Part shown: one piece after another, positions 8,075 to 20,716 of the stretch | How the letters are laid out: every line of letters starts with the position of its first letter | Numbering within the stretch: position 1 is the first letter of the stretch | IMG/VR virus record: IMGVR_UViG_3300031269_000105 | Location: 1-20,716 of that record | Length of the DNA: 20,716 nt | Source of the DNA: a virus | Direction: 5' to 3' (one strand) | The notes under the pieces: generated by a model | What the model was told of the DNA's origin: nothing | What the model saw: the letters and a program-made list of their open reading frames with translations, nothing else | The model's database searches: none | Position numbers and translations under genes: made by a program

Positions 8075-8095
8075 CTATTCCTACACTTATAGTTG

Positions 8096-10078
8096 ATGGA
8101 GGAAATTGCAACTTACTATGCGACTTTAAAGGCTGTAAAAGACGGTGGAATTATTCCAAATGGAATGCGTAAAATCGCTTATGTCGATAAACCTGCAATT
8201 GAAGAAGTTGGTATCTATCTCAAGAAACACGACACAAGAACAATTCCAAGTAGCGAAGAAGAAGATGCAATCATTCAGCATTTAAGTAGTTGTGGAATAG
8301 TTAAGCCCGACAATTGGACTGAAGTAACTGAAGATGACTATTTACAAGCGAAAGAAACTCACTTAACTACTGATCCAACATCTCGAGAATCATTTAACGA
8401 TGTTCAAAAAAGTGGCGGGGGTGGTCAATGGTTGGTTCGTTATGAATATGATGGTCCTTCCGATTCCAAAAACAGAACTTTCTGCGCTCGAATAATTGGG
8501 TTGGGTAGACTTTATACTGAAGAAGAAATTAAGAATGGATTATCAAACCCTCGATTTGGGAGCTATTCTATTTTCGATTATAAAGGATCATATGGATGCC
8601 GTCACATTTGGAAGCGAAAAATATACTTTGAAGATTATGAAGACGACGAAGTAAGGAGGGTTGGATTTGTACCTACTGTTGTAAGAAGATTAGATGACAG
8701 AGATGCAACAACATTAAATGCATTCCTATCTAAGAATGAGAAGATGCAAGTTGTCGCACCGTTGTTGATTCCTGACAAAGACATTTATCGAAATGATGAG
8801 CTAGGAAGATACAATATGCGCTTCTCACAAGATACCGTAAAAGAACTTTACAATGTTGCTTTATCGAACAAGCTATTTGAGAGTAAAGACTTATTTAAGG
8901 ACACTCACAAGGGAGGTATAGCACCTTCATATGTCATCGACCATTGGATTATACAAGACTTAAACGATAAGGCTTATACAGAATACAACTTCAACGCAAG
9001 TCGTGTGCCAGTTGGTTCATTAATGGTGCAGTCACAAGTTACTGACAAAGTATATTGGGAGCAAGATATTAAGATTAAGAAGAAACATTCCTACTCAATT
9101 GAAGCACTTATCAATTTAACTATTGTTGAAATGGCATCACAGAAGCCAAAGCAATATGGTGACGTTGTTGTTTTTAATGATAAGGATCAATTTTTAATAC
9201 TTCAGCGTAAGAATAGTGACAATTATATGCCTAATAAAATATGTTTACCGGGTGGCAAAATAGAAAAAGGCGAAGAAATAAAAGACGGTGCTATTCGTGA
9301 ATTGATAGAAGAAACTGGGTTACAAATAGAAGACGCTATTTTTTTAGAATCAATTGAAAATAAAGATGGTAGTTCTTCACATTATTACACCGCAAAAAGT
9401 AGTGATACGGTTAAATTAAGCGATGAGCATAAAACGTTTTCATGGGTCAAAAATTTAGATGCAATACCTAAAGAAATGTTTATTGAAGCAGACAAAGAAA
9501 GAATTGTACAAATAGTAAAAAAATCAAATATAAATCAAAAACAAATAAGTATGGAAAAGGATCAAATCGTTTTGCCTGATGGTGAGCATCTGATTGACGG
9601 TAAAATTTACATCGTTAAGGGTGGTGTTGTTGTCGAGGTTAAAGATGTAACTGATGGACAAGAGAAACTCATTGAGGACAACCTCGAAAAGTCAGCAGAG
9701 GAAAATCTAAAGGAAGAAGAAAAACCAAAGGAGGAACTTGCAGAGGACAAACCGAAAGAGGAAGAAAAATTAGCGGAGGAAAAGCCGAAAGAAGAGCTTT
9801 CTGAAGAAAAACCAAAAGAGGAAAAGACACCCGAAAAAATGATGAAAGACGGGGATGAAAAACCAAAAGAGGAAATGGCTGAAGAAGCACCTAAGGAAGA
9901 AAGTTATGACAATGTAAATCTTCAAAAGCAAATCGAAGACCTCGTTTCTATGGTTGCTGAATTAAAAACGCAAATTGAAAGCAAGCCTACTGAAGAAAAA
10001 GAGATTGAAATGTCAGATAAAAGGCCTATGTGGAAAAAGATTTCAGATGGAATAGAATCAATAAATAGTAACAATTAA
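8096..10078 (+). CDS. XkdF-like head maturation protease with Nudix domain and scaffold-like tail
   Basis: A 660-residue composite head protein (ATG 8096 preferred over TTG 8093). Residues 19-43 (IIPNGMRKIAYVDKPAIEEVG) match the start of XkdF-type prohead proteases. About 110-178 is a Cys/His module (RYEYDGP, FC at 129-130, GCRH at 167-170) like the end of phage head-morphogenesis proteins. About 239-350 is the rest of the XkdF-like domain, with candidate catalytic His283 and Ser334 (in SYSIEA). About 354-477 is a complete Nudix hydrolase domain, box 387-409 with both REL and EET parts intact. The remainder (486-660) is a charged, KPKEE-repeat segment ending in a short coiled coil (609-631), as expected of a capsid scaffold. 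It lies directly before the major capsid gene, which fits protease plus scaffold. Domain roles come from motifs; no search was run. Confidence 0.75.
   Translation: MEEIATYYATLKAVKDGGIIPNGMRKIAYVDKPAIEEVGIYLKKHDTRTIPSSEEEDAIIQHLSSCGIVKPDNWTEVTEDDYLQAKETHLTTDPTSRESFNDVQKSGGGGQWLVRYEYDGPSDSKNRTFCARIIGLGRLYTEEEIKNGLSNPRFGSYSIFDYKGSYGCRHIWKRKIYFEDYEDDEVRRVGFVPTVVRRLDDRDATTLNAFLSKNEKMQVVAPLLIPDKDIYRNDELGRYNMRFSQDTVKELYNVALSNKLFESKDLFKDTHKGGIAPSYVIDHWIIQDLNDKAYTEYNFNASRVPVGSLMVQSQVTDKVYWEQDIKIKKKHSYSIEALINLTIVEMASQKPKQYGDVVVFNDKDQFLILQRKNSDNYMPNKICLPGGKIEKGEEIKDGAIRELIEETGLQIEDAIFLESIENKDGSSSHYYTAKSSDTVKLSDEHKTFSWVKNLDAIPKEMFIEADKERIVQIVKKSNINQKQISMEKDQIVLPDGEHLIDGKIYIVKGGVVVEVKDVTDGQEKLIEDNLEKSAEENLKEEEKPKEELAEDKPKEEEKLAEEKPKEELSEEKPKEEKTPEKMMKDGDEKPKEEMAEEAPKEESYDNVNLQKQIEDLVSMVAELKTQIESKPTEEKEIEMSDKRPMWKKISDGIESINSNN
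9155..9526 (+). other. In-frame Nudix hydrolase domain inside the protease/scaffold gene
   Basis: The translated segment has the full Nudix box pattern G-x5-E-x7-R-E-U-x-E-E-x-G-U at 9254-9322 (GGKIEKGEE, then IRELIEETGL), preceded by a strand like those of MutT proteins (DVVVFNDKDQFLILQRK) and followed by a typical C-terminal strand and helix (FSWVKNLDAIP). Isoleucine is coded by ATA in 10 of 15 cases here (through the base before 9551), against about 5 of 27 upstream and 2 of 11 downstream in the same gene. The acidic residues of the box that bind metal are all present, so activity is plausible. Substrate cannot be read. Confidence 0.85.
9551..10078 (+). CDS. Possible nested scaffold protein from an internal start
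   Basis: An in-frame ATG at 9551 would give a 175-residue product holding only the charged scaffold-like part of the protease gene: KPKEE repeats and a terminal coiled coil. The bases before it (about 9510-9550) are nearly all A and T with many A runs, resembling the leaders of the true genes here, for example those of the capsid gene (10090) and the portal gene (12143). Lambda C/Nu3 shows that a scaffold can be made from an internal start in a protease gene. This is inference; the A-richness could equally be a by-product of the Nudix insertion just upstream. Confidence 0.3.
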   Translation: MEKDQIVLPDGEHLIDGKIYIVKGGVVVEVKDVTDGQEKLIEDNLEKSAEENLKEEEKPKEELAEDKPKEEEKLAEEKPKEELSEEKPKEEKTPEKMMKDGDEKPKEEMAEEAPKEESYDNVNLQKQIEDLVSMVAELKTQIESKPTEEKEIEMSDKRPMWKKISDGIESINSNN

Positions 10079-17155: not shown

Positions 17156-17328
17156 TATTTACTGAAAAGCAAAGATTCGTTTTACAAATGATTAAAGTGG
17201 CTTCAGGAGTTGCAGGAGTTGCAGGGGTGTTGACTGAGAACCATCCTTACTTGACGGTCGGAATACTTGTTGTCGGTGCTTTGGCAAATGAGGCATTGAA
17301 TTATAAACCGAAAAAAGACACGCCCTAA
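17152..17328 (+). CDS. Small hydrophobic holin-like protein
   Basis: A 58-residue protein with hydrophobic stretches at about 13-27 (MIKVASGVAGVAGVL) and 33-49 (YLTVGILVVGALANEAL) and a lysine-rich tail (YKPKKDTP). Two short membrane segments with a charged tail is a holin-like plan. It is coupled to the preceding gene through ATGA, and its stop (17326-17328) overlaps the stop of the convergent helix-turn-helix gene by 3 of 4 bases (CTAA). A holin role is inferred from plan and location before the endolysin. Confidence 0.5.
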   Translation: MIFTEKQRFVLQMIKVASGVAGVAGVLTENHPYLTVGILVVGALANEALNYKPKKDTP

Positions 17329-17339
17329 TTGAGCGCGTC
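17311..17339 (-). terminator. Minus-strand terminator at the end of the HTH operon
   Basis: On the minus strand, GACGCGC (17339-17333) pairs with GCGTGTC (17323-17317) in a 7-bp stem with one G-U pair and a 9-base loop. Six T residues follow (the A run at 17311-17316). It overlaps the 3' end of the small holin-like gene on the plus strand. Confidence 0.65.
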
Positions 17340-17486
17340 CATTAATTTTGAGTAAGTTGACAGTAAAGGATCACATTCGTACTTGACTATTCTACCAATA
17401 GTGCTACGAGATATTCCCGTTATCTTAGAAAGTCGATAGGCTGTGACACCTTTCGACTTCATTTTTAGTTTTAGTTGTTCAATCAT
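17325..17486 (-). CDS. Small Cro/C1-type helix-turn-helix protein
   Basis: A 53-residue DNA-binding protein. The helices are visible as IEQLKLKMKSKG (2-13), TAYRLSKITG (15-24), SRSTIGRIVKYE (26-37, the recognition helix) and LSTYSKLMDAL (42-52), which matches an XRE/Cro domain with nothing else attached, so no dimerisation or peptidase domain. The start ATG (17486-17484) sits in an A-rich leader. It is the second gene of a two-gene minus-strand operon and ends in an intrinsic terminator. Placed between holin-like and endolysin genes, it could regulate this region or its own promoter. Confidence 0.8.
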   Translation of the reverse strand: MIEQLKLKMKSKGVTAYRLSKITGISRSTIGRIVKYECDPLLSTYSKLMDALN

Positions 17487-17496
17487 TTTTTAAAAC

Positions 17497-17640
17497 TTAA
17501 TCTCTACTAATTGCTTTGAATCCTCCATAAGAAAATTCTCCATACTCATTGAGATTTTTTTCCCAATCTTCGGGTACTGATGAAAGAAATCTTTCTTTTT
17601 GAATAGGCTGTCCGTGATAATAATAGATGTACTTTTTCAT
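17497..17640 (-). CDS. Small hypothetical protein upstream of the HTH gene
   Basis: A 47-residue protein (MKKYIYYYHGQP, then FLSSVPEDWEKNLNEYGEFS and GGFKAISRD). It is short but has a leader rich in A after a good promoter, and it ends 10 bases before the HTH gene start, so the two are an operon. I do not recognise a family. Confidence 0.6.
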   Translation of the reverse strand: MKKYIYYYHGQPIQKERFLSSVPEDWEKNLNEYGEFSYGGFKAISRD

Positions 17641-17671
17641 AATTTCTTTTTTTTAATTGTTATCGTTGGTA

Positions 17672-17702
17672 CAAATATAAGGCATTAGTTCCATCCTCAC
17701 AA
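17672..17702 (-). promoter_or_regulatory. Bacteroidetes-type promoter for the HTH operon
   Basis: On the minus strand TTG (17702-17700), a 20-base spacer and TATATTTG (17679-17672) match the -33/-7 consensus of Bacteroidetes. The first start codon (17640) is 32 bases downstream. It lies in the gap shared with the endolysin gene, so the two transcripts diverge from here. Confidence 0.7.
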
Positions 17703-17764
17703 CTATTCTAACGTTTATTTTACATTTATTTTTAGTTTTCTAGGTTTTATAGTACCTTTAGGAT

Positions 17765-18286
17765 ATGAAAATATCATTTATAATCGGACACAACGAGAAA
17801 AGACAAGGGTATTATTCCGATCATTTAGATACATCTGAATGGGATTTTTACAATGGAATATCTTGTGAACTCAACGAAATAGGAGATGTTTTTTTGCATG
17901 ATCCTACAATTAATAGTTATACCAATAGATGCAAAGAAATATCCGAACGTATTGGAACTGACTACGACCTTACTATTGCACTTCATTTTAATTCATTCAA
18001 TACAAAGGTTGGAGGTACAGAGTGCTTTTATTGGCATACAAATGAAACTACTAAGAAGATCTCCGAATATTTGAGTAGTGAGTATTCTCGTAAGGTAGGG
18101 TCAAACAATCGAGGTGATAAAGGTTTTGAGAGTGTTAATGATCGTGGAGCAGGTGAAGTATATTATCCTAAAGTTGATGCAGTATTATTTGAACCGTTTT
18201 TCGGAGACAATAAAGAGGACTGCGAGAAGTTTGATGTTTGTAAATTCATACTAACATTGGAGCGGTTAAAATTAGAGTTTGCTTAA
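17765..18286 (+). CDS. Endolysin: N-acetylmuramoyl-L-alanine amidase (Amidase_3)
   Basis: A 173-residue zinc amidase that cuts the bond between N-acetylmuramic acid and L-alanine of peptidoglycan. Metal ligands of the Amidase_3 fold are visible: His9 (IGHN), Glu25 (SEWDFYN) and His74 (IALHFNS), with the likely catalytic Glu143 (LFEPFF). The length covers just the catalytic domain, with no signal peptide and no wall-binding domain, so export would need the holin. Holin-like genes precede it but are separated by the minus-strand HTH operon. The stop overlaps the stop of the convergent gene at 18283-18286. No good promoter is visible: TACCTTTA at 17753-17760 is a weak -7 match. Confidence 0.9.
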   Translation: MKISFIIGHNEKRQGYYSDHLDTSEWDFYNGISCELNEIGDVFLHDPTINSYTNRCKEISERIGTDYDLTIALHFNSFNTKVGGTECFYWHTNETTKKISEYLSSEYSRKVGSNNRGDKGFESVNDRGAGEVYYPKVDAVLFEPFFGDNKEDCEKFDVCKFILTLERLKLEFA

Positions 18287-18531
18287 AAAGGCGTGTCCTT
18301 GTGTTCTTTAATTTCAAAATCAATATCATGTGTCATTTTCTTAAGTTGAGCAAATGATTTTCTATCTGATCCCAATTTAAACCCAACGTGCTTTTCATTT
18401 TTATCAAGCCATTTTGAACACTTAAGTAGGTTGTAGCCTCGTTTTCCATTTGAAAATGGAATCTTATATAACTCTTTTTTGTACCACCCGTATGGTTTGT
18501 TTTTGTATGTGAAACCTTTGGTATACCTCAT
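18283..18531 (-). CDS. Hypothetical protein, basic
   Basis: An 82-residue protein rich in K, Y and F (TYKNKPYGWYKKELYKIPFS, then GYNLLKCSKWLDKNEKHVGF), with an end EIKEHKDTPF. It is the last gene in the minus-strand set at 18283-20092 and converges on the endolysin with a 4-base overlap (TTAA). The sequence is not low-complexity and has an A-rich leader, so it looks real. No family recognised. Confidence 0.55.
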   Translation of the reverse strand: MRYTKGFTYKNKPYGWYKKELYKIPFSNGKRGYNLLKCSKWLDKNEKHVGFKLGSDRKSFAQLKKMTHDIDFEIKEHKDTPF

Positions 18532-18545
18532 AATTACATTTTTGG

Positions 18546-18573
18546 TTGTTTATATATGTTAGTTATAAAACAA
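18546..18573 (-). repeat. Small imperfect inverted repeat after the 59-residue gene
   Basis: TTGTTTATA (18546-18554) is complementary to TATAAAACAA (18564-18573) with one bulged base. It lies 1 base beyond the stop of the 59-residue gene on the minus strand. It may be a weak terminator or a degenerate member of the larger inverted repeats at 18768, 19162 and 20131. Confidence 0.4.
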
Positions 18574-18753
18574 TTAAATTATTCGCCTCCATTTATATTT
18601 AACCGATTTAAGCACGACATCTTTATTTGGTCTAATAACGGTATATTCATTTTTATTAATTTCCTCCCAACCTTCTTCTCCTAACTTAAATCTAACTTCA
18701 TCTATTTTATCAAATTCGTTTTCATTAAATTCTACTTCTGTAAATAATTCCAT
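18574..18753 (-). CDS. Small acidic hypothetical protein
   Basis: A 59-residue protein (MELFTEVEFNENEFDKIDEV, then FKLGEEGWEEINKNEYTVIR and SVKYKWRRII). Acidic front, basic end. The start is 14 bases from the edge of the first long inverted repeat, and it has an A/T-rich leader. It sits as a single gene between repeats, consistent with a cassette. No family recognised. Confidence 0.55.
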   Translation of the reverse strand: MELFTEVEFNENEFDKIDEVRFKLGEEGWEEINKNEYTVIRPNKDVVLKSVKYKWRRII

Positions 18754-18767
18754 AATTTAAAAGTTTA

Positions 18768-18893
18768 TAACAACGTATATAATTTATAGGCTGTTTGGTT
18801 AATATTTTAATGTTTAATTTATTCTATTTAAGTAGGTTTTTTAATCCAAATTTCTCGCTTATATACGCCTACAAAATCATATACAAACCGTTA
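18768..18893 (-). repeat. attC-like imperfect inverted repeat 1
   Basis: The arm 18768-18791 begins TAACAACGTATATAA and ends TAGGC. The arm 18867-18893 begins GCCTAC and ends ACCGTTA. They pair with few mismatches except for 3 extra bases in the second arm. Further pairing exists inside: TTTGGTTAA (18794-18802) against TTAATCCAAA (18841-18850). The second arm continues into CCCAC, giving GTTACCCAC (18890-18898), a word also found at the other sites. Shape and arm polarity match repeats 2 and 3. Confidence 0.6.
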
Positions 18894-18906
18894 CCCACAA
18901 TAAAAA

Positions 18907-19140
18907 TTACTGCATTGGTGAGTAACCATAATCAGGTTTGCATTTCGTAAATTTTGATTTAGTCTTTCTAACTAATTTCACGTTTGAAACTCCGTTATAC
19001 ATTTCAATTTCTTTACCATCTTTTATTGGTACAATTACCTTTACTTCAATTTCGGGTACTGCTCCAAAAAGTATTTTAATCTTGTCAATAAAATCAAAAT
19101 TTACTTGGGTTTTCGTTACTAATTCTTGTTCGTTTTTCAT
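18907..19140 (-). CDS. Hypothetical protein in a single-gene cassette
   Basis: A 77-residue protein with a polar front, a hydrophobic core (IDKIKILFGAVPEIEVKVIV) and a basic end (KLVRKTKSKFTKCKPDYGYS). Mixed strand pattern; no membrane segment certain. It is bounded on both sides by the 9-base word GTTACCCAC (18890-18898) and its complement GTGGGTAAC (19159-19167), which mark the inner edges of repeats 1 and 2. It is a good candidate for one mobile unit. Function unknown. Confidence 0.55.
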   Translation of the reverse strand: MKNEQELVTKTQVNFDFIDKIKILFGAVPEIEVKVIVPIKDGKEIEMYNGVSNVKLVRKTKSKFTKCKPDYGYSPMQ

Positions 19141-19161
19141 TTGTCCATAATTTTAAAAGTG

Positions 19162-19251
19162 GGTAACACTGTATAAAGTGAAAAGCCCATAAAGTTTTGT
19201 AATAAATAGCCAAATTTAGGTGCGGCTTCTCACCTTATACTTAATGTTACC
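19162..19251 (-). repeat. attC-like imperfect inverted repeat 2
   Basis: The arm 19162-19187 begins GGTAACACTGTATAA and ends AAAAGCC. The arm 19224-19251 begins GGCTTCTCACC and ends ATGTTACC. All but about 2 positions pair, apart from 2 extra bases in the second arm between GTAT and TAAC. It is the best of the three repeats. It lies between the 80- and 77-residue genes and ends 5 bases before the stop of the former. Confidence 0.7.
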
Positions 19252-19256
19252 AAACA

Positions 19257-19499
19257 TTAAATTACTTGGTACATCATTCCTGCAACTTGTGGACCGTGTG
19301 TGTCATACGCTTTATCATAAGCATCATTAATATCTTCTGCATCTATTTCAAACGTCCATCCGTCTTTCCCTTCTGATTCAAACCAGAATAAATAACGTTT
19401 GGTAACATTATGTAAATCACATAACTCAGCGTGTCTCTTGCCGTACAATCCGTTTTCCTCTTGTTCGTGTCTTTCTCCAAATAGTTCATTATCTTCCAT
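19257..19499 (-). CDS. Small acidic hypothetical protein
   Basis: An 80-residue protein when started at ATG 19499-19497. A longer reading from TTG 19535 would add 12 residues but would begin inside the repeat word GTTACCCACAA, so I reject it. Acidic, with a near-repeat at the front (ELFGERHEQEENGLYGKRHA) and a core LFWFESEGKDGWTFEIDAED, then NDAYDKAYDTHGPQ. No family recognised. It ends next to inverted repeat 2. Confidence 0.55.
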   Translation of the reverse strand: MEDNELFGERHEQEENGLYGKRHAELCDLHNVTKRYLFWFESEGKDGWTFEIDAEDINDAYDKAYDTHGPQVAGMMYQVI

Positions 19500-19524
19500 A
19501 TCGTTAAGTTTTTTACATTTAGGT

Positions 19525-19538
19525 GTTACCCACAATAC
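19525..19538. repeat. Isolated half-site GTTACCCACAATAC
   Basis: GTTACCCACAATAC is the inverted copy, with one mismatch, of GTACTGTGGGTAAC at 20121-20134. The two words flank the 184-residue gene exactly. No paired arm accompanies this half-site, so it may be the end of a cassette whose partner arm was lost. Confidence 0.55.
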
Positions 19539-20092
19539 TAAGACTGTGCTTCTAATTTAGCCAATTCGTCTTTCATTTTTTTTATATTACGTTGCTTTAA
19601 ATCTTCTTTATTTTTCTCGTAGTATCTTTTTATAATTGAATCATAAGCGTTATAAACCTTACTAGCACTTTCTAAGCTAAAATAAAGGCTTTTGTTTGCA
19701 GAGTCAATATATTTGGGCTTGTAGGTCTTTAATTCTAAAAAGAACTTTTGGAAAAATTCAGTTGGGTAATCTCCACCAAATATATAAGCACCTGTTGGGT
19801 AACTAATGCAAAGTAATGTTTCTTTGTTTGGTTGTCTTCCGTCATCAGACCAAGATATTTTTCTACGCTCACCATCCCAAAAACCAATAGTTACATTCTC
19901 TTTTAGTTTTTGCCAGTCGGTACTATTTATTTTTTTAGGGTCTAATTCAAAACCGTATTTTTCTACTAATTCAACACCAAACAAATGATGTTTCGCTTTC
20001 ATTTCTAAGCTGTCTACATCAAATACTATTTCTAATTTATACTTGTTAAGTGCTTTTAATATCTCTTTGTATGCTTTTTCTGTTGTATTCAT
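19538..20092 (-). CDS. Hypothetical protein, largest of the minus-strand set
   Basis: A 184-residue soluble protein with a basic coiled-coil C-terminus (about 148-184, IIKRYYEKNKEDLKQRNIKK). The middle has an aromatic, strand-rich part (VTIGFWDGERRKISWSDDG, then LLCISYPTGAYIFGGDYP). No signal peptide or membrane segment. It is flanked by inverted copies of GTTACCCACAATAC, so it appears to be one unit. No conserved catalytic motif recognised. Confidence 0.55.
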   Translation of the reverse strand: MNTTEKAYKEILKALNKYKLEIVFDVDSLEMKAKHHLFGVELVEKYGFELDPKKINSTDWQKLKENVTIGFWDGERRKISWSDDGRQPNKETLLCISYPTGAYIFGGDYPTEFFQKFFLELKTYKPKYIDSANKSLYFSLESASKVYNAYDSIIKRYYEKNKEDLKQRNIKKMKDELAKLEAQS

Positions 20093-20120
20093 TTTGTTTA
20101 AGTTTTATAATTAATAATCC

Positions 20121-20180
20121 GTACTGTGGGTAACAATGTATATAAGCCATAGAAAAAACGGCTCATATACTAATTCGTTA
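20121..20180 (-). repeat. attC-like imperfect inverted repeat 3 with flanking word
   Basis: The arm 20131-20148 is TAACAATGTATATAAGCC and the arm 20160-20180 runs GGCTCATATAC to TTCGTTA, pairing except for 3 extra bases in the second arm. The word GTACTGTGGGTAAC (20121-20134) joins the short arm. It marks the right edge of the minus-strand set; beyond it plus-strand phage genes resume. Confidence 0.65.
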
Positions 20181-20199
20181 TATGCAAATATACATAAAC

Positions 20200-20230
20200 T
20201 TTACATAAAAACTACACAAAACTATATTTA
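20200..20230 (+). promoter_or_regulatory. Candidate Bacteroidetes-type promoter for the spanin-like genes
   Basis: TTTA (20200-20203), a 19-base spacer and TATATTTA (20223-20230) match the Bacteroidetes -33/-7 pattern with one changed base in each element. The start codon at 20255 is 24 bases beyond. Spacing is exact but the elements are weaker than at 16148. Confidence 0.4.
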
Positions 20231-20254
20231 TTTTTAAATCATTAAATTTACAAA

Positions 20255-20584
20255 ATGAAAGACATAATAATCACATTAGTCGCTTTGCTTTTAATAATCG
20301 GTGGTATTGCTATATACAAACAAAACCAAGTTAACGATTTAAGAGCCGATTTAAAGCACTTAAACAACACGATTGATATACGAATACATAAATCTATTAT
20401 AGATGCAGAGAAACGCACAACAGATAGACTGATTGAAGAGTTTAACAACCAACCTGCCGACACGATTATTAAAACCCAAATAAAATATAAATATGAAACC
20501 ATTATTGATAGCATTTTTGTTTTGCCTGATTCTACCAAAGTTCAGTATATCACAACAGAACTCAATCGACTCTACCCAAATTGA
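20255..20584 (+). CDS. Membrane-anchored coiled-coil protein, inner spanin-like
   Basis: A 109-residue protein with an N-terminal membrane segment (about 4-22, IIITLVALLLIIGGIAIYK) followed by a charged helical part (NDLRADLKHLNNTIDIRI...) and a C-terminal end that lies in a second frame with the next gene. This is the plan of an inner-membrane spanin (Rz-like), which links inner and outer membranes during lysis. An exported protein is encoded out of frame inside its 3' end, again as in Rz/Rz1. Spanin role is inferred from arrangement. Confidence 0.55.
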   Translation: MKDIIITLVALLLIIGGIAIYKQNQVNDLRADLKHLNNTIDIRIHKSIIDAEKRTTDRLIEEFNNQPADTIIKTQIKYKYETIIDSIFVLPDSTKVQYITTELNRLYPN

Positions 20585-20716
20585 TAACATCATTCGTTTA
20601 ATCAATGATTTCAAAGCCTGTGAAGAATACAGTCAAGAACTCGAAACACGGTTAATAGATGCACGTGACTTGATCGGTCGGACAGTTAAGGAGCGAAACG
20701 AATACAAAGACTTGTA
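20493..20716 (+). CDS. Exported protein nested in the spanin-like gene (partial)
   Basis: An open frame starts at ATG 20493 in the +1 frame relative to the gene above and runs off the window end after 74 codons. It begins with a signal peptide (MKPLLIAFLFCLILPKFSIS, cut near residue 20 before QQNS), followed by a polar helical part (IDNIIRLINDFKACEEYSQE). There is no lipobox cysteine at the cut site, so it is not a typical outer-membrane lipoprotein spanin. The overlap covers the last 92 bases of the upstream gene. Together they resemble an overlapping spanin pair. Confidence 0.5.
   Translation, partial: MKPLLIAFLFCLILPKFSISQQNSIDSTQIDNIIRLINDFKACEEYSQELETRLIDARDLIGRTVKERNEYKDL

Follow-up and report, generated by a model that had tools for sequence, protein, structure and literature searches.

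The window analyzed here is the full 20,716-nucleotide stretch of a viral contig (IMG/VR record IMGVR_UViG_3300031269_000105, positions 1 to 20,716). In its lysis region, small minus-strand genes separated by hairpins lie between an endolysin gene and a candidate spanin gene, both on the plus strand. A sequence-only reading of this DNA had proposed that they form an integron-cassette-like array of five genes with no integrase in view. The features of the region, by position along the window, are as follows.

17765 to 18286, plus strand: endolysin (amidase), left flank; Pfam Amidase_3 (E = 1.2e-9), PHROG endolysin
18283 to 18531, minus strand: ORF Z, 82 aa; occupies the recombinase position next to the end site
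18547 to 18564, minus strand: putative terminal attI-like end site AACTAACATATATAAACA, identified with the end-site weight matrix; homology with the sister phage resumes within it
18574 to 18753, minus strand: ORF A, 59 aa, last cassette; box match 5/9
18769 to 18892, minus strand: site e1, 124-nt hairpin upstream of ORF A; stem −10.8 kcal/mol, spacers 5/3
18907 to 19140, minus strand: ORF B, 77 aa, cassette B; box match 7/9
19165 to 19248, minus strand: site e2, 84-nt hairpin upstream of ORF B; stem −14.5 kcal/mol, spacers 5/3
19257 to 19499, minus strand: ORF C, 80 aa; residues 1 to 31 from the hairpin loop, the rest from the mobile segment 19246-19414
19404 to 19527, minus strand: site t2, 124 nt; stem −9.0 kcal/mol, spacers 6/3; both flanking boxes match their cassettes
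19538 to 20092, minus strand: ORF D, 184 aa, cassette D; relatives at 86% aa identity in contigs L002 and L003, flanks unrelated
20132 to 20179, minus strand: site e3, 48-nt hairpin upstream of ORF D; stem −10.0 kcal/mol, spacers 6/3
20177 to 20188, minus strand: outer boundary and array start, R''-like TTTGCATATAAC; shared with the sister phage up to here
20255 to 20584, plus strand: Rz-like spanin candidate, right flank; PHROG 739 (E = 0.0085, weak)

Elsewhere in the window, a 53-aa Cro/C1-type HTH protein is encoded on the minus strand of the lysis region (17325-17486) and is 96% conserved in the sister phage, and a 661-aa protein beside a putative capsid gene (8093-10078) contains a central Nudix hydrolase domain (PHROG 1198, residues 344 to 475).

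The three inverted repeats of the sequence-only reading lie where it placed them, end in TAAC and GTTA, and share on the plus strand the arm motif TAACAACGTATA / TAACACTGTATA / TAACAATGTATA with paired GCC/GGC. The spacer asymmetry that it noticed also holds, at 5 to 6 nt from AAC to the stem and 3 nt from the stem to GTT on the gene strand. A scan for the geometry AAC-spacer-stem...stem-spacer-GTT found four minus-strand sites (20179-20132, 19527-19404, 19248-19165, and 18892-18769) with stem energies of −9 to −14.5 kcal/mol, against none on the plus strand of 18546-20200. The additional one, t2, was probably missed by the earlier reading because of its ~95-nt loop, which contains the start of ORF C. 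Among 1,000 dinucleotide shuffles of 18546-20200, 993 contained no such site, 7 contained one, and none contained more. The cutoff for the geometry was chosen after the sites had been seen, and covariance models built without the window recovered the three original elements independently. Folding of these three as single-stranded DNA, which had been proposed as a check, favored the minus strand by about 2 kcal/mol each time (minus/plus, −8.1/−5.9, −19.4/−17.2, and −7.5/−5.5). The window's spacers (5-6/3) contrast with the 5/2 of most recombinase-bearing arrays; a first strict scan at 5-6/3 found few sites near recombinases, and after widening the usual spacing there was 5/2 or 5/1. The junctions at 18531-18574 and 19498-19538 were considered as truncated attC sites and rejected, the former being the end site and the latter a full long-loop site.

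Three covariance models (R1, R2, and R3) were trained only on recombinase-bearing arrays of other phages, the window being left out. With E values that are rough because the calibration was short, R1 placed e2 at 19160-19253 on the minus strand (50.9 bits, E = 6.7e-8; 19.3 bits on the plus strand), R1 and R2 placed e3 at 20127-20184 on the minus strand (E = 6e-5 and 7.7e-6, respectively), and R3 placed e1 at 18764-18897 on the minus strand (47.6 bits, E = 2.2e-7); the fourth site, t2, was weak (R3, E = 0.88). With these models, the kind of covariance check named by the earlier reading came out in its favor for all three of its elements (E from 6e-5 to 7e-8). The same models detected sites in Polaribacter phage P12002L and in L002, L004, L009, and L194, and in chromosomal Bacteroidota arrays they found sites on the expected strand; they found none in L005 to L008, relatives of the window by structural genes. 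One near-identical 46-nt hairpin, GATGATAAACAATCGTTTTAATGTTGTTTATCAT, precedes different genes in many contigs (L045, L048, L049, L050, L073, and L094). In the 168-kb viral contig that contains L009, lone sites of the same kind lie away from the main array (G005:57137-57222, 128858-128945, and 149816-150004), as if isolated cassettes had landed elsewhere.

In L009/L010, an array of ~12 sites is followed by a 267-aa tyrosine recombinase. A scan with this protein found 99 relatives in viral contigs, of which 80 were fetched. These ~80 viral loci encode XerA-type tyrosine recombinases of 265 to 269 aa, most with arrays adjoining and a conserved end site between the two; in many loci whose sequence extends far enough, long same-strand arrays lie directly upstream of the recombinase, and 45 loci contain scored cassettes. 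All contigs are from IMG/VR, and among 20 tested a terminase family was present in 9 and ribosomal protein L4 in none, which supports their being phages, short of proof for all of them; two relatives (L114 and L115) lie in short contigs assigned to Bacteroidota MAGs.

The catalytic residues are kept in the phage-type recombinases. Their best model is XerA, NF040815 (NCBI title, site-specific tyrosine recombinase/integron integrase), and the closest solved structures are XerC-like/XerA proteins, with IntI4 aligning in two stretches. Against TIGR02249 they reached 136 to 159 bits, below the cutoff of 265; the alignment comes in two pieces and leaves out a stretch of the model. In the first related contigs, that model gave only sub-threshold XerA-type matches. 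Judged by these alignments, the proteins lack the IntI-specific extra segment and are not IntI. In a tree of the recombinases, the phage and chromosomal kinds split with 100/100 support, the chromosomal type being 44 to 47% identical to the phage type; chromosomal-type recombinases and sites also occur in L131 and L151, labeled Ignavibacteria and Candidatus Altarchaeum (an archaeal MAG that may be misbinned). By this profile, in a search run without a positive control, no recombinase was found in the 20.7-kb window, itself a fragment, or in L194, L198, L002, L003, and L004, in agreement with the earlier remark that no integrase is visible.

In L009:209-9339 (G005, ~22 to 31 kb), the array and recombinase lie between the halves of an RNase R gene (N-terminal part, 209-1771; C-terminal part, 8962-9339), and L094 and L095 have an uninterrupted-looking RNase R downstream of the recombinase. 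A conserved insertion site of the recombinase in rnr was considered and rejected, since one element only was involved. Two DNA methyltransferases in the array region of L009 (2211-2708 and 6574-7173; PHROG 954 and 359) recall the array methyltransferases of P12002L.

In the recombinase loci, a conserved element with the consensus AACTATTATATATAAATA separates the last cassette from the start codon, and where two loci share a recombinase but differ in the last cassette, homology breaks at the TAAC of this element. A weight matrix made from the end elements of recombinase-bearing arrays reached 17.9 bits at window position 18564 on the minus strand, against 9.9 bits for the next best match in the window; the window has therefore kept the end site, and ORF Z lies on its far side. 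Because the array ends at 18547-18564, with a site of another type than the hairpins, ORF Z lies outside, and of the five genes that had been assigned to the array four remain as cassettes. Relatives of ORF Z occur at the same place in L194/L197 (94% identity) and, in L198, immediately behind an unrelated array (38%; L198:5001-5216). In the window phage, in its sister, and in an unrelated phage, a member of the ORF Z family thus adjoins the end of the array, and it is perhaps an end-site partner.

Polarity was scored with the asymmetry of the sites as a compass. In phage arrays, the gene was on the site strand and pointed to the end site in 187/187 scored cassettes, whereas in cassettes from the genome collection, including those of Flavobacterium terrisoli, Flavobacterium luteum, and Maribacter halichondriae, it was on the opposite strand in 74/74. 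The window, P12002L, L002, L194, and L198 belong to the phage kind. The genes of the window read toward the end site at 18547-18564, and their polarity rests on site asymmetry because the copies of C and D found in other viral contigs share neither flanking hairpin with the window.

The extent of the mobile unit came from all-against-all comparison of the recombinase loci. All 10 gene-length matches with a definable left edge started at AAC and none at GTT, and the right edge of shared units, where definable, was AAC or the end site. For instance, L045:583-1542 and L055:2634-3593 are 99.9% identical over 960 bp and are followed by an ordinary hairpin in one and by the end site in the other, and L097 contains a 394-bp unit twice, once internally and once at the end site. 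Since these units run from AAC to AAC, the mobile unit in the recombinase-bearing relatives consists of a hairpin and its downstream gene; the canonical unit, a gene followed by its hairpin, is ruled out by near-identical units with these bounds. Viewed by its sites, a 475-bp duplication in the chromosomal locus L181 also runs from AAC to AAC; the cleaved box thus appears unchanged there, and what is inverted is the gene. The earlier proposal of an orphan integron-type array within a phage stands, but not with canonical cassette polarity, as the hairpin is upstream of the gene.

It is unlikely, in our judgment, that the window contains an ordinary orphan attC cluster (CALIN), that is, canonical cassettes cut at G|TT that came from a bacterial IntI-type integron and are passively carried. 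Phage CALINs are known: Qi et al. 2023 (PMC9892861) report them, with IntI1 activity of some sites in conjugation assays, among them attC2 of P12002L. Because such orphan arrays have been described, the phage setting is not in itself the novelty. The P12002L array has the site family and polarity of the window. Against a canonical origin, however, every scored phage cassette is opposite to the canonical polarity, units in the recombinase-bearing relatives start at AAC and not at GTT, and the phage-type end site is kept in the window; the chromosomal Bacteroidota arrays examined are not the direct source, because their gene orientation is opposite.

When an integron cassette is excised as a circle, its start box and end box come to lie opposite each other, and for this reason they are complementary. 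The start boxes in the window are GTTACCCACAGTAC (D), GTTACCAAACGTTA (C), GTTACCCACTTTTA (B), and GTTATAAACTTTTA (A), and the corresponding end boxes, in reverse complement, are GTTACCCACAATAC, GTTACCAAACATTA, GTTACCCACAATAA, and GTTATAAAACAATT. Beyond GTT, the start and end boxes of the same cassette agree at 8/9 positions in D, 8/9 in C, 7/9 in B, and 5/9 in A; cassettes B and D are not distinguished by this measure, as they have a box in common. In the recombinase-bearing arrays, own box pairs match at 6.6/9 positions and non-own pairs at 3.8/9.

Cassettes of the window recur in other surroundings. DNA homology to ORF D in two other viral contigs extends from about GTTACCCACAGTACGG to the terminal TAAC, with unrelated sequence outside; no copy of ORF D was found in species genomes. 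The cassette C segment 19246-19414 is 96.5% identical in L009/L010, from about G|TTACCAAACG to GGTAAC, and the part of ORF C upstream of it is unrelated to L009/L010, yet in frame. A search for relatives of ORF B among the viral contigs was negative, and Pfam/PHROG-type profile searches gave no confident family for ORF A. Cassettes C and D have only the gene segment GTT..AAC in common with their relatives, and the hairpins on either side are different; there must therefore also be exchange at the R' box or by another route.

The array as a whole differs between close relatives. A sister phage, L194/L197, emerged from scans with the endolysin and with ORF Z. It is homologous to window 17636-18554 at 86.5% and to window 20177-20716 at 97.8%, and the array between these flanks is another one, with sites, genes, and matching boxes of its own; the content of the array is therefore replaceable while both flanks stay. 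At the outer boundary, where L194 homology stops, the sister phage reads TTTGCACATAAC. The comparison of related phages that the earlier reading had proposed for this gap was thus partly answered, by the same flanks with different content in L194/L197; portal-protein relatives were diverged and did not cover the lysis gap, so no empty site came from them. A DNA search of annotated phages with the structural half of the window gave no match.

Phage genomes are mosaic, and the array could have been swapped between mosaic flanks by homologous or illegitimate phage recombination, the hairpins being relics that no longer recombine. The differing hairpins on either side of the C and D copies would fit, as would the negative recombinase search in the window. 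We nevertheless think that there is little chance of this, since the breakpoints in C, in D, and in the sister array fall at boxes and the matching of boxes within cassettes is preserved, which decay would erode. Fixed intergenic hairpins without mobility (transcription terminators or REP-like repeats) are scarcely credible: attC-like hairpins can be weak terminators, according to PMC9892861, and most of the hairpins are intergenic, but the strand-asymmetric geometry, the matching of boxes across genes, the context swaps, a covariance family tied to a recombinase, and Rfam searches with no convincing match (only two sub-threshold, chance-like ones) all argue against them, and the different hairpins and genes in the same gap of the sister phage largely refute them.

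Many of the longer hairpins of the phage arrays also encode the start of the gene. Where the hairpin is 100 to 135 nt long, the longest ORF starts inside it and crosses GTT in frame in 62/95 cassettes, compared with 1/59 for hairpins of 70 to 100 nt. Several of these ORFs have a common leader, such as M..FNE..ENLNISDV, with different bodies. ORF C is of this leader type, with 31 hairpin residues followed by the mobile segment; the same segment in L009 has a different 47-residue in-frame start, and phrog_37256 matches ORF C at residues 36 to 80 only. In L094, L050, L043, and others, loops of 120- to 135-nt hairpins code for similar N-terminal peptides (..ENLNISDV..) fused to different proteins. 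One long hairpin loop of L050 has a tRNA-like look, in which ARAGORN finds no tRNA. In L194:5935-6382, a small cysteine-rich ORF lies almost wholly within a hairpin loop, with ~40 nt from GTT to the next AAC.

With a probability that we put at roughly four in five, the segment 18547-20188 is a cassette array of integron type, orphan, and of a kind that is specific to phages and has reversed polarity. Its mobile unit would be C, hairpin, GTT, and gene through to TAA, cut at TAA|C, with the hairpin 5' of the gene. Another phage or the host would supply such a recombinase in trans, and this enzyme would fold the gene-sense strand into the hairpin and cleave at AA|C, and cassettes would be inserted at the end site, so that the newest gene would be the one adjoining ORF Z. 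The genes read toward the end site, so a single promoter there could not drive them; promoters would come with the hairpin, as would, for many cassettes, the start codon and the first ~20 codons. The benefit to the phage may lie in small accessory genes that are quickly exchanged in a permissive gap of the lysis region.

A broader proposal, which we hold to be somewhat better supported than its contrary, is that Bacteroidota phages, many of them with large genomes, have an integron class of their own, in which the recombinase is of XerA type and has no IntI insert, the array closes at its 3' end with a conserved end site, and the cassettes are inverted compared with canonical integrons. The hairpin would act as a 5' leader providing expression signals, a start codon, and an N-terminal tag; orphan arrays would be fed in trans, and box-level exchange would shuffle protein N-termini. 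The window is a partial, orphan member of this phage type, having the site family, the hairpin-first polarity, and the end-site motif, with ORF Z where an adjoining recombinase would be. It also appears to be a CALIN, given its strand-asymmetric hairpins bearing R and L boxes, its matching boxes, the recurrence of cassettes in other surroundings with the breaks falling at boxes, and content that varies between constant flanks, and it does not appear to be a canonical IntI integron, which would have attC 3' of the gene, the IntI insert, and genes directed away from attI.

Canonical IntI integrons (class 1 and the Vibrio superintegrons) resemble the present array in their single-stranded hairpin sites, AAC/GTT boxes with spacers, and one gene per cassette, and resemble the phage arrays further in a tyrosine recombinase with an adjoining end site; the phage arrays differ in having genes directed toward the end site, the hairpin 5' of the gene, and a recombinase without the IntI insert. 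Integrons of the Treponema denticola type share with the phage arrays a recombinase and cassette genes transcribed in the same direction, but there intI points toward attI and the cassettes away from it, whereas in the phage arrays the recombinase points away from the end site and the cassettes toward it (PMC3607928). Chromosomal Bacteroidota arrays (Flavobacterium terrisoli L120, F. luteum L152, and Maribacter halichondriae L190) have the same covariance site family and a related recombinase, and unlike the phage arrays have reversed gene orientation (0:74) and recombinases across a fully supported branch.

Closest to the window are the phage CALINs, above all that of P12002L, in which, according to the accessible part of PMC9892861, attC-like clusters and small genes occur without an integrase, as here; the P12002L sites also have the covariance family and polarity of the window. 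That part of the paper describes attC clusters and puts the divergent directions in P12002L down to mosaicism, and does not describe an end site, hairpin-first units, or an associated recombinase. IntegronFinder 2.0 found a complete integron in Bacteroidetes proper only in Salinibacter ruber (PMC9024848). A search of the open literature, with subscription papers and preprints outside its scope, gave nothing matching XerA-type, Bacteroidota, or large-phage integrons; relative to that literature, the polarity and the recombinase of the phage arrays appear to be new.

Integrons are regarded as platforms by which bacteria capture genes, with IntI as their defining feature. The present data point to a widespread relative of the integron in phages of Bacteroidota, with opposite polarity and a simpler recombinase, and tools built on IntI and canonical attC sites could miss or mislabel such arrays. 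The phage arrays offer a test of what sets cassette orientation and of how genes gain recombination sites, an open question for integrons, and they also bear on how phages exchange small accessory genes. Protein starts encoded in the hairpins would tie recombination directly to protein diversification.
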